Shown: positions 882-26,072 of the stretch, one piece after another | Layout: every line of letters begins with the position of its first letter | Numbering within the stretch: position 1 is the first letter of the stretch | NCBI GenBank assembly: GCA_029258735.1 | Contig: JAPDKD010000118.1 | Coordinates: 1-32,256, forward strand | DNA length: 32,256 nucleotides | From: an archaeon | GTDB taxonomy: Archaea > Thermoproteota > Thermoprotei > Thermofilales > JAPDKD01 | Direction of reading: 5' to 3' | Notes under the pieces: model-generated | Told to the model about the DNA's origin: nothing | What the model saw: only the letters and a program-made list of their open reading frames with translations | The model's database searches: none | Program-made: the position numbers and the translations under genes

Positions 882-2957
882 TTACTGTCTTCTTAATCTT
901 TTCTCTAGGTCTTCTAACTCTTTCTCGATTTCAGCTAAGTCCCTGTCTTCAACGCGTTTACGAGGTCTCCAACGTATAGCAAGGGCAACTAATGCTGCAG
1001 CTATTATTGCAGCTATCAGATATTCGGCAAGTGGTCTTTTAGTCTTCTTTTCTTCCTCAAAGGATGGTATTTCAATCTGAACTTTACGCGATAATGTGGG
1101 GACTTTAAGTGAAATGCTGTAGGTAACCTTCTGATTCTCTACATTTATATACTTGTCTCCGCATGTGGCTAGCGCATATACTTCTATGTCTTCAGAGGAG
1201 CCAGCCCTTATTTTTACTGAAAATTTTCCCAGTATTGGATGTTCTAGTTCACCGTTATCTGTGGAAAATATAGGGATTGCTATGGCGGAACTATTATCTA
1301 AAAGTTTTACAAATACAGATGTTAAGTTTTCTGGCTGATTTTTAAATTTGATGCCTAAAACTCTTCCACTGCGAGACCTAATTACCAGCCATAATATGGT
1401 GCATTTCTTCTCGTTCTTAACTTCTATTTTCGAAATCTTCCATTTGTTGCTGTGATTAACTAGCTTATATCCTATGGGAAGCTTTTCTATAGATCCTTTA
1501 AATGTGCCCCACGCTCTAGAAGTAGTATAATATCGATGCTGAAAAGTCAGCAGAGACCTTTGGCTTACGAGTAGAGCCTCCTTACTCGAATACACATTTG
1601 ACAATGCGGTTAACGTTGTTTTTAAAGCATTTACGCCTTTTCCCACTAAAGATGATTGCTCAGCGAGATCTCCAAGTTTATCTGAAAGAACATTTAATTG
1701 ATTAGCCATCTGCGTTAATCTTTTCGAAAGATCCGTTGTCGCATTTTCAAGTGCTTCCACACCTGTCGATAATTCCCTAAGCCCAACGCTTGCAGCCGAT
1801 AATTGCGCTGAGACTATTTTTAGCTGAACTGATAACATTGTTAGCTGCATCATAAGCTGTTGAAGCTCAGGAGTAGGATTAGTGATTAGACTGGGATCCG
1901 CAGTTAAAATTATGTCTGTAAGCAGATTTAGGCTGTTTTTCGCCTCGCCTGACATGGCGGCCAGGCTACTAGCGGCCTTAGATAAAGCTTTAGAGTATTG
2001 TTCGAGAACTTGGCTGAGTTCATATTCCGTCTCTCTGTTAGCGTTTTCTGGTAAAGGAGTTTTTAACGCTTTGGACATGGCTGAAAGCGCGCTGGAGATG
2101 CCCTGAATGCCCGCTCCTAAAGAGTTCGCGGTTGAAGCTAGCGCTGAAAGGGTTTCAGATAGCTGGTGGCTTTCGGATATTTGCTGGTCTAAAGCTGGAT
2201 TGGCTTGCTGTATTATTGAGTAGGATATGGATATAGGGTCTAGGTTTACCTCGCCCCAAGCGCCTAGGCTTTTTACTTTAAATGTTGCGTTCAACCAAGT
2301 CTCATCGTACACCGTTAATATCCAGCTATTAGCCATTAACTGTGATTGAGGTACGTTAGCTTCCTCAAGTTCTAATATATCGTCTGGGAAAGGCATAGAC
2401 ACCAGCACATTTATCGGACTTTTTTCGTACATTGGGCCGTCAAAGAGTCTGGGAAGATTGTTTTCGAATTTTAAGCAGAGGGTTATCCTGTCGCCTTTAT
2501 TTACTTTAAGTTTCAGCATCTTTCCTTCTTTTACTGGTTTGATTTCTTTGCCGTTAACTATATAAAATATTTTTACAAGGAGTGGTAGTTCCTCCTTTGG
2601 GATTGAATCTACTTGGATTTCCTTCGTTTCGAACGGGTCTACCTTAACTTTCCAAGTTATTAGGTACAAAGATTCCGCCAGTTTCTCAACAGCTACTGGA
2701 GGGTCCGAGCACTCGGAAATTTTTACATCCGTCTCTATATCGTGGACGTACAGCGTCAACGGATATGAAAAATTGTTTCGCACGGAAATTGTAGTAGTCT
2801 CAGAGATGGATTTTATCTGTGAGAGAGGATTTACTGTAACCTTAATAGAGACATTACGAGAAACTGTCGCAATTGAACTGAACGGCAAAGCGTGGGAACA
2901 GGCGGACGCGCTGATTACAAATATAAGTAATATAACAATAGTGGCTTTCGCCTTCAT
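882..2957 (-). CDS. Extracytoplasmic coiled-coil protein with C-terminal membrane anchor (ABC exporter locus A)
   Basis: This 691-aa protein is the last gene of the locus A operon. Residues 1-23 are a signal peptide (Lys-rich start, then a hydrophobic core) with a Cys at residue 20 that only weakly fits a lipobox. Residues 30-250 are beta-rich. Residues 255-475 form a long, Ala/Leu/Ser/Gln-rich heptad region (for example LGAGIQGISSALSAMSKAL and LSTGVEALENATTDLSKRL), resembling the heptad stretches of YhgE/Pip-type proteins. A second beta-rich region follows. One membrane helix lies near residues 645-668, and the short cytosolic tail is a charged coiled coil (DLAEIEKELEDLEKRLRRQ). Its ATG overlaps the ATPase stop as ATGA, with a strong AGGAGGGGG site about 10 bp upstream, so the two are translationally coupled. 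A periplasm-like adaptor role, comparable to MacA, is inferred only from context. Confidence 0.85.
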   Translation of the reverse strand: MKAKATIVILLIFVISASACSHALPFSSIATVSRNVSIKVTVNPLSQIKSISETTTISVRNNFSYPLTLYVHDIETDVKISECSDPPVAVEKLAESLYLITWKVKVDPFETKEIQVDSIPKEELPLLVKIFYIVNGKEIKPVKEGKMLKLKVNKGDRITLCLKFENNLPRLFDGPMYEKSPINVLVSMPFPDDILELEEANVPQSQLMANSWILTVYDETWLNATFKVKSLGAWGEVNLDPISISYSIIQQANPALDQQISESHQLSETLSALASTANSLGAGIQGISSALSAMSKALKTPLPENANRETEYELSQVLEQYSKALSKAASSLAAMSGEAKNSLNLLTDIILTADPSLITNPTPELQQLMMQLTMLSVQLKIVSAQLSAASVGLRELSTGVEALENATTDLSKRLTQMANQLNVLSDKLGDLAEQSSLVGKGVNALKTTLTALSNVYSSKEALLVSQRSLLTFQHRYYTTSRAWGTFKGSIEKLPIGYKLVNHSNKWKISKIEVKNEKKCTILWLVIRSRSGRVLGIKFKNQPENLTSVFVKLLDNSSAIAIPIFSTDNGELEHPILGKFSVKIRAGSSEDIEVYALATCGDKYINVENQKVTYSISLKVPTLSRKVQIEIPSFEEEKKTKRPLAEYLIAAIIAAALVALAIRWRPRKRVEDRDLAEIEKELEDLEKRLRRQ

Positions 2958-3847
2958 TTTTCTATCCCCCTCCTTATGAGCTCCAAGTCCTGCAAGATTC
3001 GTTGCTTTATCATGCGATATTCCGCGTCTGAAATTTGCCCTGAAGTTAGTCTTCTTTTAAGCGAATTTAGCTCTTGACGCAGGATTCGAATGTAAACTCG
3101 CATTATCTCGTTTTTCTCTCCGACGCTTGGAGTCCAAGTATACTTCATTAAGTCTTCTGGGGGCGTTTTGTAGAGCTTCCCGTCCCTTATATGATATATT
3201 TTCTTTGCAGCTTTTGCAACACCTGGATTGTGAGTAACCACTATAAATGTTTGGCCAAATTTTTCGTTCAGCACCCGGCAGAGGGACATTATGCGGCTAC
3301 CTGTAACCGTATCCAGAGAACCAGTCGGCTCATCCATTAAGACAAAGGTGGGGTGATTAGCTAACGCACGGGCTATTGCTACTCTTTGCTGCTCGCCGCC
3401 ACTAAGCTCTCGAGGCTTATGGTTAGCTCTCTCTCTTAATCTCACTAGAGTGAGGAGGTCTAAAGCTTTTTCTCTCGCTTCTTTTTCGCTGTACTTGCCT
3501 GTTAGTAACATTGGCAGCGTTACGTTTTCGAGCGCGGTTAGGGTTGATATTAGATTAAAGAATTGGAATACGAAGCCTATTTTTTCTCGGCGTATGTGCG
3601 CTAGCCGTGCCTCTGAATAGTCTGTGACATCCTCGCCATCAATTATGACGCGGCCTCTTGTCGGTTTGTCCATCGTGCCTATGATGTTTAGTAGGGTTGT
3701 TTTTCCGCTGCCACTAGGACCCATAATGGCTATAAACTCGCCCTTATTTACGACTAAGTCTATCCCTCGCAGCGCATGAACTTCGGCTGGCGTTCCTTCC
3801 TCATAGACCTTTTCTACGTTAATTAGCTCTATTGCGGCTCTACTCAT
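2954..3847 (-). CDS. MacB/LolD-type ABC transporter ATPase with SHOCT-like C-terminal tail
   Basis: This is the cytosolic ATPase that powers the FtsX/MacB-like permease encoded just upstream. All motifs are intact: Walker A GPSGSGKT (43-50), LSGGEQQRV signature (148-156), Walker B FVLMDEP (168-174) with D-loop SLD, and H-loop His205. The first 230 residues are the usual size of this subfamily. About 65 further residues follow, ending in a helical segment (residues 250-290) with the pattern LTSGQISDAEYRMIKQRI. This resembles SHOCT short C-terminal domains, which often sit at the ends of proteins and are thought to aid oligomerisation. The gene overlaps the permease stop by 8 bp and the next gene start by 4 bp. 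Substrate is unknown; this subfamily usually works on lipoproteins, peptides or the envelope. Confidence 0.93.
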   Translation of the reverse strand: MSRAAIELINVEKVYEEGTPAEVHALRGIDLVVNKGEFIAIMGPSGSGKTTLLNIIGTMDKPTRGRVIIDGEDVTDYSEARLAHIRREKIGFVFQFFNLISTLTALENVTLPMLLTGKYSEKEAREKALDLLTLVRLRERANHKPRELSGGEQQRVAIARALANHPTFVLMDEPTGSLDTVTGSRIMSLCRVLNEKFGQTFIVVTHNPGVAKAAKKIYHIRDGKLYKTPPEDLMKYTWTPSVGEKNEIMRVYIRILRQELNSLKRRLTSGQISDAEYRMIKQRILQDLELIRRGIEK

Positions 3848-5000
3848 ATCTCAGCGCCTCTATCGGCCTAATATTTGCCCCCTTCCAAGCTGGCTGGAAA
3901 CCAGCAACAACTCCCACTGCCGATGCGATTATTAGCCCTTCTAGCAATACTACAGGGTCTATCACAGGCGTCAGTTGCATTCCCATAAACTTTATGAGCC
4001 CACTTGTTACTATGTGGGCGCCAGCTAAGCCTATGGCTATGCCTACGAGCCCGCCAATGAAGCTTAAGAGAAAGGCTTCTGAAAGGAAAATGGCGAGTAT
4101 GTGTAGTCGTTGCGCTCCAATAGCTTTGAGTATGCCTATTTCTCTGACTCTTTCTCTCACTACCATAGCTATTGTGTTCATAACGCTGAGTGCTGCTACG
4201 ATAAGGCTTATTGAGCCTATTGAGAGCAAAGTAGCGTTGACGACGTCCATTATTCTATTTATCTGCCTCGCTATTTGCTCTGGCTCTATGATGCGCGCTT
4301 CAGGGAACATTTTCTTCAAAGCTTCTGCTAAGGGGTGAATAAGATCTCTGGATGCGACTTTAATTACTATTGAAGACGCGTAGCCTGGACGGTTATAAAG
4401 TTCCTGAGCTTGTGATAAAGGCATTACTATGAACCCCATTTCTCCGAAAGAAAGGCCTATGTCGATTATTCCCACAACTCGGAATCTCTTGGATGTAGCG
4501 CCTGTTGAGCGAGGGGAGATTTCTATCGTGTCTCCAATATCTACGCCGAGTCGATCCGCGAGATTAGGCGTGATCAAAACGCCTTCCTCGTCCTCGTAGA
4601 ACAGCCTTCCCTCCTTAAGCTCCATATTTGGGAACGCATCCTTCAAGTTTTTCAGCTCAATTCCTTCTAGTATCGCAGGTTGCAAGGCTGAGCCCACAAG
4701 TGCTGTTTGTTCAATCACTGGGTAAGCATTAACCACTCCGTGTATTTTCATTATGGCGGGTATTAAGCCTACAGGTACTTCGACCCCTGTTTTTCCTGAG
4801 AGAGTTACCGCTAAGCCGAGCGTCTCTGAAAGCATATTTTCTATCTGTGTTCGCATTCCGAGGGTAATTGACATTAAGGCTACTAGCGCAGCGATGCCGA
4901 CAGCAATGCCTAAAATTGTTAGACCAGCTCTAACCTTTCTGCTGGTCATGTCATTCCATGCAAATTTAACCGCGTACTTGTACACACTTAGAGCGGACAT
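3840..5000 (-). CDS. MacB/FtsX-type ABC transporter permease
   Basis: This is the membrane subunit of exporter A, 386 aa. The architecture is that of the MacB family: one N-terminal membrane helix (about 25-46), a large extracytoplasmic MacB_PCD-type domain (about 50-250), and three C-terminal helices (about 257-279, 305-330 and 350-370) forming the FtsX domain. The cytosolic loop RERVREIGILKAIGA is the typical ATPase coupling segment, and the C-terminus PIEALRYE is a family hallmark. Such permeases generally work by mechanotransmission rather than by forming a classical transmembrane channel. Its ATG at 4998-5000 lies 35 bp inside the end of the upstream gene and is preceded by GGTGAGGT, which supports that start despite the long overlap. 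It pairs with the ATPase at 2954-3847. Confidence 0.93.
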   Translation of the reverse strand: MSALSVYKYAVKFAWNDMTSRKVRAGLTILGIAVGIAALVALMSITLGMRTQIENMLSETLGLAVTLSGKTGVEVPVGLIPAIMKIHGVVNAYPVIEQTALVGSALQPAILEGIELKNLKDAFPNMELKEGRLFYEDEEGVLITPNLADRLGVDIGDTIEISPRSTGATSKRFRVVGIIDIGLSFGEMGFIVMPLSQAQELYNRPGYASSIVIKVASRDLIHPLAEALKKMFPEARIIEPEQIARQINRIMDVVNATLLSIGSISLIVAALSVMNTIAMVVRERVREIGILKAIGAQRLHILAIFLSEAFLLSFIGGLVGIAIGLAGAHIVTSGLIKFMGMQLTPVIDPVVLLEGLIIASAVGVVAGFQPAWKGANIRPIEALRYE

Positions 5001-6465
5001 ACCTCACCACCAGCCATCCAATTACGAGCACTGCGACACCGCCTACAACCCAGGCTGCAACGTTCGCCCACAGAATACCCGCTTTCTCTATCTTAATTTC
5101 TACAATGTTTGATTCGCTTCCGAGCGTATTTGCATTCCCTAGCCACGCTGCCTTAATCTTACATGTAGAGCCCGGTGGCGCGTTAATAGTTATTGAAGCG
5201 GAAAACGTTCCGTTGCTTGCTTCAGCGTATCCCGGCGATGTCCATCCATCGCCGCAATCCACGAAAATGTGAACTGTGGCTGAGATAGGAGGATTGATGC
5301 TGCCTTTAAGTTCTACACGGCCTCCATTAGAAATACTAGTGGTTGATGCTGATATCATAATAGTGCTTGGAACCTTATCAACGTATACGCTTATGCTCCG
5401 AGACTGAACTGGAGCGTACTTTTCGTCTCCAGCCCATACCGCTCTATAAACGTGCTCGCCTAGTTTGAGGTTCTTAATAATATATTCAAAGTACCCTGTC
5501 GTATCGATTGAAACTGATGCTATCGAAGTCCATCCGGCTTCTCTTTTTTCTTGAATTGTTAAAGAGGCATAGGGACGGGATGGCGAAACCCATCCATATA
5601 GTTTCAATCGACCATTTGATTCATTAGCGTAAAACTCTATTTTCAGCTTCCCTTTAACGTTGACTGTTATGCTTCCCCTAGCAGTGGAATTGTATTCCGC
5701 GGCGTTCAGTGCCCATGCATCGACTGAAATTATAATCTTGTCTTTTTTGCTCGAAGTTACAGTAAACGTGGCTTTCTTTTCTTCTTTTGGAGAAATGACA
5801 CCAAGAACGGCCTTATCGGATCCATAAACGTCTATTGGTCCATATAATGCGAGTCCACTATTGATAATACTGTAATTGCCAAGGTTCCTTACAATCACTG
5901 TTACAGTGAAATTTTCATTTTCAACGGCTTCCGAGGGTCCAAGAACATCTACATCTAAGTATAAAGGAGGCGAGTAGACGTACACTGGAAGCTCAACAGA
6001 GTATTCAACTTTAGATTCCCGATCCTCGTCATTTTCTGAATATATTTTCACCAATATTTTTAGGTTAAAGCTGGCTTTCTCGCCCCCTTTTATTTTGCTG
6101 AAAGTAGGATCAACGATTTTTAGCGGCACTATAAGTTCAAGGCTGTCACTTGTTGATGCTAGCTTTTCTATCATGGCGCGGGAAAATCCTATCGATGTGC
6201 CTTCAAGCTCCACGGAAAGATATCTAATTTCAATATACTTTTCTTCTCCAAGACTTTGCGCCTGAATTGAAACAGTAATGTTATAGCTGTTTCCTGCAGT
6301 AAAAACCTGAGGATAAAAGACTTCAAGCTTTACTACTGCTGTGCCAACATCGATAGAGAATTGCCTTTCAATAACGTAAGGCTCCGCATATAGTAAATTC
6401 GACTGCAAAGCGAAAGCTACTACTAGCAGCACCATTAAACTAATATATCGGATTCGATACATCAT
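4966..6465 (-). CDS. Surface-exposed Ig-like/CARDB-type protein with C-terminal membrane anchor (first gene of ABC locus A)
   Basis: This 499-aa protein has an N-terminal signal peptide (about residues 1-27). Residues 30-160 form a beta-rich domain. Residues about 165-265 resemble a CARDB/NEW3-type adhesion module (for example GPSEAVENENFTVTVIVRN). Two further Ig-like domains follow (about 270-360 and 365-460), with the AGDEKYAP and AWLGN patterns seen in bacterial Big-type Ig repeats. One membrane helix near 468-490 is followed by a short basic tail, so almost the whole protein faces outside. It heads the operon, and the tandem ATG ATG at 6460-6465 gives two possible starts. A role in binding exported substrate or in envelope attachment is inferred from linkage with the exporter; no catalytic motif is visible. 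Confidence 0.85.
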   Translation of the reverse strand: MMYRIRYISLMVLLVVAFALQSNLLYAEPYVIERQFSIDVGTAVVKLEVFYPQVFTAGNSYNITVSIQAQSLGEEKYIEIRYLSVELEGTSIGFSRAMIEKLASTSDSLELIVPLKIVDPTFSKIKGGEKASFNLKILVKIYSENDEDRESKVEYSVELPVYVYSPPLYLDVDVLGPSEAVENENFTVTVIVRNLGNYSIINSGLALYGPIDVYGSDKAVLGVISPKEEKKATFTVTSSKKDKIIISVDAWALNAAEYNSTARGSITVNVKGKLKIEFYANESNGRLKLYGWVSPSRPYASLTIQEKREAGWTSIASVSIDTTGYFEYIIKNLKLGEHVYRAVWAGDEKYAPVQSRSISVYVDKVPSTIMISASTTSISNGGRVELKGSINPPISATVHIFVDCGDGWTSPGYAEASNGTFSASITINAPPGSTCKIKAAWLGNANTLGSESNIVEIKIEKAGILWANVAAWVVGGVAVLVIGWLVVRYVRSKCVQVRG

Positions 6466-6500
6466 TATCGATATATTGAGAATGCGGATGCTAATAAACT
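6442..6500. promoter_or_regulatory. Divergent promoter and candidate PadR operator of ABC locus A
   Basis: The 50-bp gap between the divergent starts (6465 minus, 6516 plus) must hold both promoters. A TTTATTAG-like box on the minus strand at about 6491-6498 would start the exporter transcript near 6470. GATATATTG at 6470-6478 could be the TATA box of the PadR gene. A perfect 9-bp inverted repeat, AATATATCG at 6442-6450 and CGATATATT at 6469-6477, spans this region with an 18-bp spacer. Its right arm overlaps the PadR TATA box and the exporter start site. That is where an autoregulating PadR repressor would be expected to bind, but the assignment is inferred. Confidence 0.35.
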
Positions 6501-6515
6501 TAACCGTGATGATAG

Positions 6516-6863
6516 ATGCGTAGGCGCAAGTTTAGGGAAACCCTGGTAGTCATCATATTATCCGTAATGGCACAGGGAGAAACCCATGGCTATGACATTA
6601 TACGGACAATTGAACGAATTACCCTTGGAAACGTAAAGCTGTCTCCTGGCACCCTTTACCCTTTACTATTCATTATGCGCAGAGAGGGACTGATAAAAGT
6701 AGTAAAAATAGACGAGGAGGGACGAAAAAAGAAGGTTTACTGTTTAACGCCTAAGGGAAGAGAATATTTGATTAAGCACATACCTTCTACTATTAAATAT
6801 CTTAAATCTCTGGTAAATTTTCTAGAAGATATATCTAACATTTTAACTGCTGAACAAAGTTAA
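6516..6863 (+). CDS. PadR-family transcriptional regulator
   Basis: This is a 115-aa winged-helix repressor of the PadR family. The diagnostic pattern is present: HGYDIIRTIE in helix 2, LSPGTLYPLLFIMRREGLI across the recognition helix and start of the wing, and KVYCLTPKGREYL at the end of the wing. A C-terminal helix of about 30 residues is a short version of the PadR dimerisation helix. PadR proteins usually repress neighbouring transporter or detoxification genes and respond to small ligands. Here the gene is divergent from ABC exporter operon A with a 50-bp gap, so control of that operon and of itself is likely. The ATG at 6516 is the only start in frame, because the upstream GTG/ATG at 6506/6509 runs into a stop. 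Confidence 0.93.
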   Translation: MRRRKFRETLVVIILSVMAQGETHGYDIIRTIERITLGNVKLSPGTLYPLLFIMRREGLIKVVKIDEEGRKKKVYCLTPKGREYLIKHIPSTIKYLKSLVNFLEDISNILTAEQS

Positions 6864-6880: not shown

Positions 6881-6898
6881 CTAAGGCTTAAAATATTT

Positions 6899-6988
6899 GG
6901 GGGTTCAGCCCCCTGTGTTGAGGTAGCCTACCGCCGCCCGCGGAGAGGGCAAAACTGGTAGAGGCTACCCGGAGGGGGCTGAACCCCT
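6899..6988 (+). ncRNA. Candidate structured RNA or nested inverted-repeat element
   Basis: About 90 bases fold into a long nested hairpin. The outer stem is a perfect 15-bp pairing of 6900-6914 with 6973-6987. After an asymmetric internal loop (7 bases left, 3 right), a second perfect 8-bp stem pairs 6922-6929 with 6962-6969. Inside it, ACC (6930-6932) can pair with GGT (6957-6959) and GCCC (6936-6939) with GGGC (6947-6950). It lies between the 3' ends of the PadR gene and the Lhr helicase gene, its last bases touching the helicase stop. Being an inverted repeat, either strand could form it; the TATA-like box at 6868-6880 favours plus. I do not recognise the family. Alternatives are a bidirectional 3'-end structure or a small palindromic repeat. 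Confidence 0.4.
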
Positions 6989-21124: not shown

Positions 21125-21454
21125 ATGGAGTCTCTAGGGTTGGTGGAAAAGTTCATAATCGGATACATACAGCATGAGAATTTCGGAAGAATATACATAA
21201 TGACCAGCACGGGTGAATCTCCCGAAAAAACGGTGGCAAAATTAATAGCCGATGAAATAGCAGCTGATGACAAAGTAAAAATAAAAATTGCACCTAAAAT
21301 CGAGGCGGCTTTAAAGAAACTCCAAGAGTACTGGATGATACAGGTAAGCGGATACGAGGTAAAGTTCACAAGCTATGGACAACAAGTAGCTAAAGAACTT
21401 GACAAACAAACTTACCTCAAAATTAAACAGCAAGTCTCCCAAGGAAAACTCTAA
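21125..21454 (+). CDS. Small winged-helix-like protein, probable regulator of ABC locus B
   Basis: This 109-aa protein has no recognisable family signature. The C-terminal two-thirds look like a winged helix: helix PEKTVAKLIADEI, a second helical stretch IAPKIEAALKKLQEYWMI, and a wing pattern VSGYEVKFTSYGQQVAKEL. The last resembles the usual strand-turn-helix ending of archaeal winged-helix regulators (GYxLTxxGxxxAKEL). It has no membrane helix. It is the first gene before the ABC ATPase, 16 bp ahead, mirroring PadR at locus A, so a repressor or sensor for the exporter operon is likely by context. The ATG at 21125 lies about 24 bp after a TATA-like box. Confidence is good that it is a gene, moderate for the role. 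Confidence 0.75.
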   Translation: MESLGLVEKFIIGYIQHENFGRIYIMTSTGESPEKTVAKLIADEIAADDKVKIKIAPKIEAALKKLQEYWMIQVSGYEVKFTSYGQQVAKELDKQTYLKIKQQVSQGKL

Positions 21455-21470
21455 AAATAAGAGCTGGAGA

Positions 21471-22415
21471 ATGAGTCTAGAGTACGCTGTCGAAACAGTT
21501 AATTTAACGAAAGTTTTCGGAAACTTTAAGGCAGTAGACAATCTTAACCTAAAAATAAGGAAGGGAGAAATCTTCGGGCTACTCGGTCCTAATGGCGCAG
21601 GTAAAACAACCACAATACGCATGATACTAGGGTTAATAAAACCCACAAAAGGAGTTGTCCGAGTATTCGGGATACAGGTTGAAAAAGAGCGAAGAAAAGT
21701 GCTAAAAATGACTGGCTACATGCCGCAAAGATTCAGCCTTTATGAAGATTTAACAGTCGAAGAAAACTTAATGCTCTACGCCCTACTCTACGGGTACAAC
21801 AGGAGAGAAGCAAGGGAAAGAGTTAAGGAGCTTTTAGAAGAACTTTTTCTAGAGGAGTTTAAAGATAGGCTAGCTGGCAACCTTAGCGGCGGAATGAAAC
21901 AAAGACTAGCCCTAGCAGTAGCTCTAGTTCACAAGCCAAAACTAGTAATAGTAGATGAACCAACGGCAGGTGTTGACCCGCCGCTCCGTAGATATTTCTG
22001 GAAATACTTTAAAGACCTGAATAAGCGCGGAGTAACAATAATAGTCACAACGCACTACATGGACGAAGCCGAAAACTGCGACAGGCTGGCACTAATATTC
22101 AGAGGAAGAAAAATAGCTGAGGGAACCCCGCTAGAAATAAAAAGGCTAGCCTTCGGTGGCGATATCATAGAAATACTTCTGGAAGCACCTTCCCCTCCCA
22201 AACTAGAAGGTATAGAAGGAGTAAAGAAAATACTAGAAAGCGAAAGATACAATGGAACTGTATCAATAAAAGTACTTGTAGATGATGCATCATCACGACT
22301 AATTTCAATAGTAAAAAGGTTAGAGTCCAATGGAGTAAAGGTAGTACGTGGATCTCAAGTTTACGTTGGACTTGAAGACGCATTTATTAAACTAATAGGG
22401 GAGCAAGCCCAATGA
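21471..22415 (+). CDS. ABC-2-type exporter ATPase
   Basis: This 314-aa cytosolic ATPase drives the ABC-2 permease encoded next. The N-terminal nucleotide-binding domain has Walker A GPNGAGKTT, Q-loop YMPQRFS, signature LSGGMKQR, Walker B LVIVDEP with the D-loop GVD, and the H-loop His in VTTHYMDEAE. The last 70 residues form a small C-terminal domain with ferredoxin-like spacing. The family is that of CcmA/DrrA/NatA-type exporters of drugs, lipids or polysaccharides; substrate unknown. The reading frame continues upstream to 21399, overlapping the previous gene, but that stretch is a low-complexity Lys/Ser/Asn sequence and GGAG stands just before ATG 21471, so I take ATG 21471. The stop overlaps the permease start (ATGA). 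Confidence 0.93.
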   Translation: MSLEYAVETVNLTKVFGNFKAVDNLNLKIRKGEIFGLLGPNGAGKTTTIRMILGLIKPTKGVVRVFGIQVEKERRKVLKMTGYMPQRFSLYEDLTVEENLMLYALLYGYNRREARERVKELLEELFLEEFKDRLAGNLSGGMKQRLALAVALVHKPKLVIVDEPTAGVDPPLRRYFWKYFKDLNKRGVTIIVTTHYMDEAENCDRLALIFRGRKIAEGTPLEIKRLAFGGDIIEILLEAPSPPKLEGIEGVKKILESERYNGTVSIKVLVDDASSRLISIVKRLESNGVKVVRGSQVYVGLEDAFIKLIGEQAQ

Positions 22416-23524
22416 TACTTACAGCACTAATATACAAGGATATCAAGCAGCTTCTACGAGATCCCAAAACGTTAGTAATGGTGCTCTTAATGCCAGTAAT
22501 AGTTCTAGTAATGTTTGTTGCAGGCTACGGTGGGCCAGGAGGCAACATACCCATAGCTGTAGCCAATCTAGATGGTGGCACTATCTCATGGCGACTAATA
22601 AGTGAGCTTAAAAGAGCAAGCGCTATGGGTCTGGGAAGCTTCGAAGTAGTTAAAACAGCCTACACGTTCGAGGAAGCCTACGACTCCGTAAGGAAGGGAG
22701 AAGTCTATGCAGCAATAATAATACCAAAAGGATTCACCGAAGAAGTTTTTCTAGGAAAGGAAACTCAGGTAGGCATAATCTTAGACGCAAGCTATGCGGA
22801 CATCTCCGAAAGAGTTTACAGAGTGCTCGTACTAACAATGCAGGGATTCCAGCAAAAAGTCACGGAAAAATACGGGGGTTTTACCTTTAACATATACAGA
22901 GTAACCATCTATGGGCCAGAAGTATCGAAAATCGACGCCTTTCTAGGCGTGGTCATGAGTGTCCTCTTACACTTAGTGCCTATGAGCCTCATAGCCGTAT
23001 CTATAAGCAGGGAACGCGAACGCAGAACATTTGAGCAGCTCATAATGACTCCCATATCAAGCTACGACATTATTATGGGAAAGCTCCTGGCATACATGAT
23101 AGTAACTATGGCCGACACTTTCCTCACGCTCGGCCTCGCAGTCTACGTCTTCAAGGTTCGTGTAGTAGGCTCTTTTCTCGATTTAATGGTAATATCCTTT
23201 CTAATCCTAATATGCTCCCTAAGCATGGGTTTGCTCATCTCAGTTCTATCAAAAAACCAGCTACAAGCTTATCAGATGGCCATATTCGCCTTTATACCAT
23301 CAATGCTATTCTCAGGCTTCATTATGCCAGCAGAACTCCTATCCCCTAAGGTAAAAATAATCAGCAAGCTTTTACCTCTATACTACTTCCTTAAAGCATT
23401 CAGAAACATACAGATAAGAGGCTGGACACTGTACGACAATATCTTCGACGCCTTAATGCTTATAGGAGAAACAATAGTCTTTCTTTTAACGGCCATAAAG
23501 CTCCTAAAACTAAGGGTTGAATAA
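22412..23524 (+). CDS. ABC-2-type transporter permease
   Basis: This 370-aa membrane protein is the partner of the preceding ATPase. It has an N-terminal helix (about 20-42), a large extracytoplasmic loop (about 45-175), and five further helices (about 180-202, 225-247, 253-277, 287-305 and 342-365). The segment SRERERRTFEQLIMTPISSYDIIMGKLLAY is the classic ABC-2 motif with the ExxxGT-like turn and RERxxxTxExLxxTP pattern. Two copies would form the pore. The start overlaps the ATPase stop by four bases and the stop is separated by one base from the next gene's ATG, so all three are co-translated. Confidence 0.93.
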   Translation: MILTALIYKDIKQLLRDPKTLVMVLLMPVIVLVMFVAGYGGPGGNIPIAVANLDGGTISWRLISELKRASAMGLGSFEVVKTAYTFEEAYDSVRKGEVYAAIIIPKGFTEEVFLGKETQVGIILDASYADISERVYRVLVLTMQGFQQKVTEKYGGFTFNIYRVTIYGPEVSKIDAFLGVVMSVLLHLVPMSLIAVSISRERERRTFEQLIMTPISSYDIIMGKLLAYMIVTMADTFLTLGLAVYVFKVRVVGSFLDLMVISFLILICSLSMGLLISVLSKNQLQAYQMAIFAFIPSMLFSGFIMPAELLSPKVKIISKLLPLYYFLKAFRNIQIRGWTLYDNIFDALMLIGETIVFLLTAIKLLKLRVE

Positions 23525-23525
23525 C

Positions 23526-26072
23526 ATGAAAACCAAGATAATTGCATTAATGCTCATAACAACATTTCTAATAACCCTCAGTACCGCGCTACCTAAGGCA
23601 ACTCCAGAAGATTTCGAGCTAACAGACGCTTACTGGTCAACACCGCTAACGCTCGGAGGCACCAACGAACTAGTAGTAAAGGTAAGATGCAATATCGCAG
23701 GCTCAGAAAACCTTCAAGCAGAACTAACGCTATACAACGTGGCAGGAAGCAACCTGATCAATACTTCCTCTTACCCTTATAGCATTGACAAGGGAGCAGT
23801 AATAACGCTCCGCTTTTCCTATGACATACCGAGCGATGCCACGCAATCCTTCTATAAGGCATCTCTACATTTATCTTATCTCGTAAACGGTTCGCCGCGC
23901 ACGGAAACCATAGACTTTAATGTGGGATTTCAAGGAAAGCCCCAATTTGACGTTTCATCCTCTACATCGACGCTAGCCAGAGGAAAGACCACAAGTGTAA
24001 CTATAACAGTAAGCGTGCAGGAATCACCAGCGCGTAACGTAGAAATATCAGTCTCTTCCCTAAGCCCACTCGTAACAGTTATAGGTGGAAACGCTGAGAG
24101 ACAAGGAATCATAGACATAGGCGAAGAAATTAAGCTACCCGTCAACGTATTAGTTGATAGCGCGGCAGGAGACACAGCAACTCTAACGGTTACAATAAAC
24201 TACGAAGACTTCGACAGACAACACTATACAGAAACCCTAAACATAGGATTCAGAGTCCAAAGAGGAGGAGAACCCCACATCTCGGCTTCAGTGTCGCCGA
24301 ACTCCGTAATTTCAGGCTCACTAACCACAATATGGATAACGCTGAGAAACACGGGAAGCGGGACAGCCAGAGACGTCCACGTAGAACTCTCATCTAACGA
24401 CCCGCGTCTAACGGTGATTTCAGGCACATCCGTATCTCTAGGCGACATTTCATCTGGAGCATCGGCACGCTTCGCAGCCAGACTACAGGTTGATACTACC
24501 GCCTCGGGAGTAGCGTCCTTAACCCTTAGAATAACCTTCTTTGATCAATACGGCGATTCCCAGCTCGAAGTAATAAACGCGGGGTTAAGAATTCTCAAAG
24601 GTGAGAAACCGATAATTGCAATCTCGTCAAACAACCTAACTGCGCCGCCGAGCAAGATGGTGAAGATCTTTCTCACTGTAACAAATATTGGCGGGGCCCA
24701 AGCCGAAGACATAGTGCTCGATATAGTATCTGGTCAAGGCGTATTTGTAGTAAACACTAGTAGAATACTTATAAAAAGGCTATCCTCAAAAGCAAACACA
24801 ACAGTAAATTTTGACGCGGTTTTCCAAGATGTAGATTCGGCTGTGCTGAACGTAAAGGCTAGGTGGACCGACATGTACGGTCACGAATATTTTGACACCT
24901 TCAACCTAGCAATACAGGTAAAAGCTCCACAAAAACCAGTACTAGATATTGAGACAAAAACAAAGATACTGAATCCTAACAAAGTAAATGTAATTGAACT
25001 AATGATAAAAAACACGGGCAATGCAGCCGCATATAATGTTTCCCTGAATTTAGCATCCCCGAGTCCCGAGATAGGTTCCCTCATCGGAACGTCGCATAGA
25101 AAAATACCAGAACTCCTACCCGGCAAAAATATAACTATAACCTATAAAGTATTCGTGCAGCCGCGAGTTTACGGTGCATTGCAACTCCCCTTGCAAACAT
25201 CGTATAAAGACGAGTGGGATAAAAAATACTCCAATCTCATGGTGCTGGGATTCGAGATAAAAGGCGACTGGGAAATTACCGTTGTATACGTTGAAACCTA
25301 TCCATATACAATCTTTCCTGGGGATAAGTTAGTGCAATTAAAGCTTACACTAACAAACTCCGGGGACTACCTAGCCAAAAACATAGACATATGGTTCATG
25401 GGTAGTAAAGACGGAAAAATAAGGCCAGCAAGTACTGAAGGAGCGCACGTCTTCCTTCCCTACCTCCCTGTAGGCAACACGGCTAAAGTAATTTTTCTGG
25501 CAGACTTTTCCAGCGAACTTAGGCCTGGAAACTACGACCTCTACCTCAACGCTTCAGGAAAACCTGTGAAATTCACAGTTACAGTTGTTGAAAAAGCATC
25601 ATTTAATGTTTACAACAATTCTCCACTCACTTTCTATCAAGGGCAAAAAGGCGTCAAAATAGTCTTAACTATTGAAAATGCTGGACATGTTAAGGTAGAC
25701 AATGTAAGAATAGAACTTTACTCTCCCTTCATTTCAGGCATGACAAGCACATACGTTGGCACCATGGATGCGGGCGAAAAAAGAAGACTTGTCTTCGAAA
25801 TAGATGTGGATGAGCTAGCCCCGCTAGATGATATGCCCATAGAAGTAAAAATAACGTGGACCCAAGAGAAGAGAGAAACATATCAGACCCTAAAAATGCA
25901 CGCGCTAATTAAACATCCTCGTCTGCCTTTGCTAGCGTATGTAGCAATTATCGTATTTGTGATGTCGCTCACAGTTTTAGTGTTAAAGTCGCATCCTTCA
26001 GCAGTGCAACTAAAAGAAAAAGCTAAACAATTGATGGGTAAACTACGTAGGCCTAAAAAGGAGAGCAGCTAG
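23526..26072 (+). CDS. Membrane-anchored surface protein with about seven Ig-like (CARDB/NEW3-like) repeats
   Basis: This 848-aa secreted protein starts with a signal peptide (MKTKIIALMLITTFLITLSTALP) and ends with one membrane helix (about residues 800-822) and a Lys-rich cytosolic tail. Between them are about seven repeats of 100-115 residues, each with a core like VKIVLTIENAGHVKVDNVRIELYS and a later strand pair. Examples are TIWITLRNTGSGTARDVHVEL, VKIFLTVTNIGGAQAEDIVLDI, VIELMIKNTGNAAAYNVSLNL and VQLKLTLTNSGDYLAKNIDI. This is the pattern of CARDB/NEW3-type Ig-like modules (COG1361-like). The in-frame TTG 23517 lies upstream, but ATG 23526 gives the clean signal peptide and follows the permease stop by one base. 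It is the last gene of ABC locus B. It may dock or receive exported material; no catalytic site is visible. Confidence 0.88.
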   Translation: MKTKIIALMLITTFLITLSTALPKATPEDFELTDAYWSTPLTLGGTNELVVKVRCNIAGSENLQAELTLYNVAGSNLINTSSYPYSIDKGAVITLRFSYDIPSDATQSFYKASLHLSYLVNGSPRTETIDFNVGFQGKPQFDVSSSTSTLARGKTTSVTITVSVQESPARNVEISVSSLSPLVTVIGGNAERQGIIDIGEEIKLPVNVLVDSAAGDTATLTVTINYEDFDRQHYTETLNIGFRVQRGGEPHISASVSPNSVISGSLTTIWITLRNTGSGTARDVHVELSSNDPRLTVISGTSVSLGDISSGASARFAARLQVDTTASGVASLTLRITFFDQYGDSQLEVINAGLRILKGEKPIIAISSNNLTAPPSKMVKIFLTVTNIGGAQAEDIVLDIVSGQGVFVVNTSRILIKRLSSKANTTVNFDAVFQDVDSAVLNVKARWTDMYGHEYFDTFNLAIQVKAPQKPVLDIETKTKILNPNKVNVIELMIKNTGNAAAYNVSLNLASPSPEIGSLIGTSHRKIPELLPGKNITITYKVFVQPRVYGALQLPLQTSYKDEWDKKYSNLMVLGFEIKGDWEITVVYVETYPYTIFPGDKLVQLKLTLTNSGDYLAKNIDIWFMGSKDGKIRPASTEGAHVFLPYLPVGNTAKVIFLADFSSELRPGNYDLYLNASGKPVKFTVTVVEKASFNVYNNSPLTFYQGQKGVKIVLTIENAGHVKVDNVRIELYSPFISGMTSTYVGTMDAGEKRRLVFEIDVDELAPLDDMPIEVKITWTQEKRETYQTLKMHALIKHPRLPLLAYVAIIVFVMSLTVLVLKSHPSAVQLKEKAKQLMGKLRRPKKESS

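Follow-up and report, generated by a model that had tools for sequence, protein, structure and literature searches.

In the bacterial relatives of MacB, which belong to the type VII ATP-binding cassette (ABC) transporters, no substrate passes through the membrane helices, and the ATP-driven movement is passed to the outside, a mode of action termed mechanotransmission (PMC5985334). Several type VII transporters act with dedicated extracytoplasmic partners (PMC5985334, PMC7668044, PMC12646458), and the well-studied systems of E. coli each own one, namely MacA, LolA, EnvC or TesA (PMC7668044, PMC12646458). The main review on MacB does not contain the word archaea (PMC5985334). Here we analyze a stretch of 32,256 nucleotides (referred to as the window) from an archaeal genome (contig JAPDKD010000118.1), in which a MacB/FtsX-type permease and an ABC ATPase are encoded between two proteins tethered to the membrane. 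Our findings suggest that this locus encodes an archaeal type VII transporter with an extracytoplasmic partner of a new family, a coiled-coil protein that probably acts in the manner of MacA or EnvC and belongs to neither family.

The original prediction, made from the letters of the window, placed five genes here, and an open reading frame (ORF) was found for each of them. The features are as follows:

6465–4966, minus strand: gene of the immunoglobulin-like (Ig-like)/CARDB tethered surface protein (499 amino acids; ORF and Pfam domains)
5000–3840, minus strand: MacB/FtsX-type permease gene (386 amino acids; MacB_PCD and FtsX)
3847–2954, minus strand: ABC ATPase gene (297 amino acids; ABC_tran)
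2957–882, minus strand: gene of the coiled-coil tethered protein (691 amino acids; ORF, family alignment, AlphaFold model and homology of the N-domain)
6516–6863, plus strand, divergent: gene of the PadR-family winged-helix regulator (115 amino acids; PadR domain)
6466–6515: divergent intergenic region, 50 bases between the start codons of the PadR and Ig-like genes

As predicted, the four minus-strand genes read in one direction and overlap, by 35 bases (Ig-like/permease), 8 bases (permease/ATPase) and 4 bases (ATPase/coiled-coil), and PadR faces away from them across the 50-base gap. ORFs and hydrophobicity also agree that the permease and ATPase stand between two proteins with one C-terminal membrane segment each. 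All structural details of the prediction that were checked proved right. The host is indeed an archaeon: its draft genome of 1.41 Mb belongs to the same order as Thermofilum, and the best matches of the permease include named Thermoprotei and Thermofilum relatives. The gene order Ig-like, permease, ATPase, coiled-coil is intact in genomes G034, G155 and G264, and in G035 together with the divergent PadR gene as the fifth; the locus is thus not a chance string of genes.

The neighbourhoods of permease or coiled-coil genes were read in roughly 90 stretches, and a profile of 19 sequences of the coiled-coil family was searched against 300 genomes of the archaeal phylum. Strong matches (46, with E of 1.8e-17 or lower) were obtained from 46 genomes, one in each. 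Matches with E above 1e-13 covered only the coiled coil and were disregarded, except for a split gene in G012. In 36 of the 46 genomes, the permease and the coiled-coil match share a contig and lie no more than 1.8 kb apart, and the gap between the two is usually 0.76–0.98 kb, which is the size of an ATPase gene. Three more genomes (G012, G142 and G289; stretches L153/L192, L193 and L054/L196) have contig-end positions that fit this linkage. The other seven belong to family f13, with the permease encoded elsewhere; the ATPase gene lies directly beside the coiled-coil gene in six of these, and the seventh match is at a contig end. The original prediction stood to fall if the homologues were usually found away from MacB-type transporters, which is not the case for the coiled-coil protein.

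The core set of permease, ATPase and coiled-coil genes recurs across many families of the phylum. We refer to it as the type A locus, which consists of a permease, an extended ATPase and a protein of 580–870 amino acids with a signal-like segment, a coiled coil and one C-terminal membrane segment; the window locus is a type A locus plus an extra upstream Ig-like gene. In the permease tree, type A and f13 are separated from the other MacB-type permeases of the phylum (type B) with branch support of 100/99, and the ATPase tree shows the same split with the same support. Although its genes are split, f13 groups beside f14 in both trees. In the f13 lineage, the ATPase and coiled-coil genes have moved jointly, away from the permease. 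Since f13 remains in the type A clade of both trees, the three components travel together even when the operon is broken. On the basis of the linkage and the shared clade of the split f13 lineage, we regard the coiled-coil protein as very probably a dedicated subunit of the transporter.

Because coiled coils match one another for trivial reasons, homology within the family was tested on the beta domain alone, with Ig-like and type B tethers as negative controls. Profile comparison links most subfamilies through this domain, either pairwise or via intermediates, and gives no match of the beta domain to the Ig-like or type B tethers. Examples of the E-values are 4e-26 (own–f55), 6e-20 (own–f41), 5e-12 (own–f20) and 1.5e-7 (own–f3); they refer to pairs of subfamilies, and for some pairs the automatically set domain limits were too generous. 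For the complete f13 protein, the match to the family profile begins at the N-terminus and takes in the beta domain (E=1.9e-25). The window protein carries the features of the family, namely a beta domain with the G-x-W-G...P motif, a coiled coil, a YxxSLPxxxxK-like segment and a C-terminal membrane helix, and its gene stands beside a type A permease and/or ATPase, as expected of the family. A search with the single sequence had found no more than six relatives in the class, including four weak ones; the apparent rarity was rejected as a limit of sensitivity, overturned by synteny and profiles. Cytosolic coiled coils (L082, L083) pulled in by an early iterative profile were dropped.

The permease contains both signatures of the superfamily above the Pfam gathering cut-offs. 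MacB_PCD (E=6.3e-24) spans residues 26–230 and profile positions 2–206 of 207, and FtsX gives E=7.4e-19. Four membrane helices are expected, with a complete MacB_PCD ectodomain between helices 1 and 2; the FtsX-fold C-terminal half and the MacB-type ectodomain that define type VII transporters are both found. In phmmer searches, the permease matches structures of MacB, LolC/LolE, YtrF and YbbP. The ATPase (ABC_tran, E=1.5e-36 in Pfam) has a C-terminal extension of 71 residues (about 227–297). Such extensions measure 52–81 residues in type A loci, 31–33 in most f14 loci and 0–22 in type B.

None of the curated models of described systems reaches its cut-off. The MacB equivalog NF007826, a model of the fused ATPase-permease, scores 218 and 79 bits against a cut-off of 966; the ATPase and permease are separate genes here. 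LolD gives 239.4 of 307.75 bits, LolCE 119 of 362.45 bits for the permease, FtsE 201.5 of 264.85 bits, and FtsX 41.3 of 255 bits, with a full-length MacB_PCD present. Judged by the domain matches and these scores, the locus is a member of the type VII superfamily and is not MacAB, LolCDE or FtsEX.

The coiled-coil protein starts with a hydrophobic, signal-like N-terminus and has one further hydrophobic segment near residue 643. Its AlphaFold model displays a beta domain (~30–248), two helices (254–352 and 363–478) and a second beta region (~483–599) of low confidence, followed by one membrane helix (~642–662) and a cytosolic tail of ~30 residues. The helical stretch of ~225 residues (254–478) agrees with the coiled coil of about 200 residues in the original prediction; helix 254–352 is interrupted by a short break. 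In the model of the Thermofilum homologue, which is ~18% identical, the helices cover residues 241–352 and 377–469. Both models agree on the beta domain, the two long helices separated by a break and the C-terminal membrane helix, and the window protein has an extra, poorly predicted beta region before the latter. A helix of 112 or 116 residues corresponds to ~17 nm at 1.5 Angstrom per residue, and the two long helices likely form a hairpin.

No Pfam family matches the coiled-coil protein above cut-off, no enzymatic domain was recognised, and HlyD/MFP is absent from its Pfam and NCBIfam matches. The beta domain comprises ~210 residues, and the predicted local distance difference test (pLDDT) score of this block is mostly 60–90. 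In fold comparison of the beta part (30–248), the best Protein Data Bank (PDB) matches of both models are the mu-homology domains of AP-1/2/4 and COPI coats, with a target template modeling (TM) score of at most 0.47. Kinship with these domains was set aside; the likeness to them probably reflects a shared two-sandwich shape, and the two models rest on one sequence set. The PDB profile matches of the family were rejected as coiled-coil cross-talk. N-glycosylation sequons are not above shuffled expectation in either tethered protein.

From these features we infer a physical complex, which might work as follows. The ATPase would drive the FtsX-fold permease, whose ectodomain would hand the movement to the coiled-coil subunit. 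The latter would be secreted via its signal sequence and kept next to the permease by a membrane helix at its C-terminus, with two helices of ~100 residues on a beta domain reaching outwards from the membrane. Like MacA or EnvC, it could guide an extracted hydrophobic substrate off the membrane or relay force to a target beneath the surface layer (S-layer). In one clade, which includes the window organism, a second tethered Ig-like protein would have been added. On balance, we lean towards an adaptor or force-transmitting role of the coiled-coil protein. In bacteria, stimulation of the MacB ATPase requires the membrane helix and cytoplasmic region of MacA (PMC5985334), which offers a known example of a tethered partner that influences the ATPase.

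The original prediction proposed that the two tethered proteins could be archaeal counterparts of the MacA adaptor. This idea stands for an analogue only, because neither sequence nor fold comparison revealed a relation to MacA/HlyD; no relationship to MacA/HlyD, EnvC, LolA or SlaB could be demonstrated. The two tethered proteins are also not equivalent, since the coiled-coil protein accompanies the transporter almost universally and the Ig-like protein belongs to one permease clade.

Several observations weigh against a dedicated force-transmitting partner. The mean pLDDT of the AlphaFold models of the two homologues is modest (61 and 66), and the antiparallel packing of the two long helices is not directly visible in them. 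Neither an adaptor-type fold nor HlyD/MFP appears among the 50 fold matches listed for these two modest-confidence models. In G001, the coiled-coil homologue is apart from the permease–ATPase pair, with neither a permease nor an ATPase gene adjoining it; in genus g24 of f13, a permease is present with no recognisable coiled-coil protein. Only 15 bases separate the permease and coiled-coil matches in G072, and therefore no ATPase gene lies between them. Moreover, the coiled-coil proteins of f13, f14 and f20 have a short cytosolic tail or none. The ATPase extension had been expected to track this tail, and the comparison shows no tracking; since the f13 and f20 ATPases retain the extension despite a short or missing tail, contact between the two is no general rule.

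Other explanations of the locus have to be weighed against these data. The ABC pair might, like FtsEX with EnvC, move no substrate and instead switch a coiled-coil protein whose target is the envelope (assembly of the S-layer, division or surface remodelling). A type VII transporter drives EnvC, whose coiled coil forms a hairpin (PMC7668044), and the archaeal partner contains two long helices; the loci of different families have no constant cargo or biosynthesis gene beside them, as would suit a signalling system. However, FtsX has no Sabre, and EnvC binding is possible only then (PMC7668044), whereas the permease here carries a complete MacB_PCD. Its score with the FtsX model is far below the cut-off (41 of 255 bits) and the coiled-coil protein lacks a recognised enzymatic domain, so that we consider signalling of this kind unlikely, though the best of the alternatives.

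A stalk of the S-layer that is merely co-expressed with an unrelated exporter seems improbable to us. The overall plan of SlaB is alike, with a signal sequence, beta-sandwich domains, a coiled coil and a C-terminal membrane helix (PMC10903991, PMC6911244), and the SlaB chain 8qox_B is among the profile matches of the family. That match (E=2.5e-6) is confined to the coiled coil and is no better than those to SMC, chemotaxis-receptor and designed coiled coils. SlaB extends one helix of 132 residues to the membrane, whereas two helices with a break and a further beta region precede the membrane helix here, and a stalk would leave the stable linkage and co-inheritance with the transporter unexplained. 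It is just as doubtful that the locus is an ordinary PadR-controlled peptide or drug efflux system, whose tethered proteins trap or receive substrates and transmit no force. PadR genes recur beside type A loci and beside the second class of MacB-type loci, and further exporters here are accompanied by tethered proteins of CARDB/NEW3 type, the ABC-2 exporter of the window among them. Yet a coiled coil of ~200 residues is unusual for a receptor, and PadR is missing from most coiled-coil-type loci examined; in f13/f14 the usual neighbour is an MMPL transporter gene.

We therefore keep the reading of a mechanotransmission engine with a dedicated tethered partner. A bolder version, which we offer tentatively as the less probable one, is a new tripartite type VII machine of this phylum. 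Its anchored partner would span the space between membrane and S-layer and convert the MacB stroke to export or envelope work through a two-sandwich beta domain and helices of 15–17 nm. Such a partner would be independent of MacA, EnvC, LolA and TesA, and the ATPase tail would be an archaeal adaptation.

The Ig-like protein has a hydrophobic, signal-like N-terminus, a CARDB domain (173–248), Big_3_5 Ig-like matches in Pfam (the best at 311–362) and one hydrophobic membrane segment near residue 469. All five near-full-length homologues, including those of G034, G035, G155 and G264, are encoded directly upstream of the permease. Near-full-length matches of the Ig-like profile occur only in the three class genomes that have the gene next to the permease, and the remaining matches cover isolated stretches of Ig-like or CARDB type. 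The five permeases accompanied by an Ig-like gene group in a single clade (support 98/96), and most type A loci have no such gene. Since its near-full-length matches are confined to one permease clade, the Ig-like protein is a clade-specific addition outside the core. Homology links its Ig-like part to a Big_3_5 tether of 650 amino acids near an f13 type A permease (E=5e-9) and its CARDB part to type B tethers (E=1.7e-8).

Tethered proteins were also noticed at other transporters. Type B loci (L078–L082, L160–L168, L175, L182–L184) often have a CARDB/NEW3 tether of 500–900 amino acids beside the permease, a short ATPase without extension and, in several cases, PadR; this recurrent tether is apparently uncharacterised. 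A second exporter built on the same plan is encoded by a run of overlapping genes at 21399–26072 on the plus strand of the window, with a DrrA-like ATPase, an ABC-2 permease and a secreted CARDB/NEW3 protein of 851 amino acids that has a single membrane helix at its C-terminus. It may be common for exporters of these archaea to have tethered partners.

The PadR domain is clear (E=1.5e-17; 63.8 bits versus a Pfam gathering score of 27), and the regulator probably represses the operon. In the 50-base region, CGATATAT locates at 6469–6476, next to the Ig-like start codon, and L045, L046 and L151 have this 8-mer no more than ~35 bases before their Ig-like gene. The element ATATATCG, close to the Ig-like start codon, is common to the window and these three stretches, and in L046 and L151 it also falls inside this ~35-base span. 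We notice CGATATAT as a candidate half-site and ATATATCG as a candidate operator of PadR; the element was first noticed by eye, and its count is hence no clean test. That the 9-mer ATATATCGA occurs once in the window is by itself nothing unusual. An A/T-rich block, GGTTAAGTTTATTAGCATCC, is near-identical in G035 and is a possible TATA region.

Beyond the PadR gene, a long and nearly perfect hairpin (window 6896–6987) stands before an Lhr-type helicase gene. Its minus-strand fold has an energy of -58.8 kcal/mol (z-score -6.5), and it is a single copy in the genome. It matches no Rfam family and has no real match in 80 other genomes of the class; it might be a terminator acting in both directions or a small structured RNA. 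Neighbours of a different kind were seen in other families. In f14 and f13, an MMPL (RND-type) gene is divergent beside the type A permease or the ATPase–coiled-coil pair (L064:3288–5861, L187:1316–4141 and equivalent positions). It is apparently the sole MMPL gene in most of these genomes, and the arrangement is absent from the window's lineage. A functional link between the MMPL transporter and the type A transporter is likely in f13/f14. In f20 (L155, L156, L158, L169, L197), conserved genes for a DUF92 membrane protein and a helix-turn-helix protein lie upstream of the type A permease, on its strand. The DUF92 neighbour might hint at lipid or dolichol-type metabolism.

In the open-access full text searched, we found no description of this archaeal gene set or partner family, and no paper on what the many MacB-type permeases of this phylum push against; the family appears undescribed in the open literature. 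The conserved coiled-coil partner is a concrete candidate for what archaeal MacB-type permeases act on. If the adaptor reading is true, the same engine has gained unrelated partners at least once more, in one-membrane cells with an S-layer. This would help to separate the general function of a mechanotransmission engine from that of an outer-membrane duct.

Known systems share some features with the locus and differ in others. The SlaB stalk of Sulfolobales has the same domain outline as the archaeal partner, which differs in helix layout and in its linkage to a transporter. With FtsEX-EnvC and FtsEX-CwlO, the locus shares a split ATPase and permease and a coiled-coil extracytoplasmic partner. 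Unlike FtsEX, it has a complete MacB_PCD, and its partner is self-anchored, with neither a hydrolase nor a LytM domain recognised in it. Archaea are not expected to offer peptidoglycan as a target. As in LolCDE and LolDF, the ATPase is split off and close to LolD (239 bits), and the best NCBIfam score of the permease is LolCE (119 bits); unlike LolCDE, there is a single permease gene and no LolA-like partner. YbbAP-TesA is likewise a type VII transporter with a dedicated partner encoded adjacently (PMC12646458), but its YbbP is a permease of double length and its TesA a hydrolase, neither of which is found in the archaeal locus. MacAB(-TolC) and YknXYZ/SpMacAB share with the archaeal locus the MacB-type permease with a complete PCD and a tethered partner with long helices encoded by an adjacent gene. 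In contrast to MacAB, the archaeal ATPase is a separate protein, and the membrane helix of the partner is C-terminal rather than N-terminal as in the MacA type. In contrast to HlyD/MFP adaptors, the archaeal partner is built of a beta domain and a coiled coil that have no Pfam model. The Gram-positive YknXYZ/SpMacAB, like the archaeal locus, works without an outer membrane (PMC5985334).

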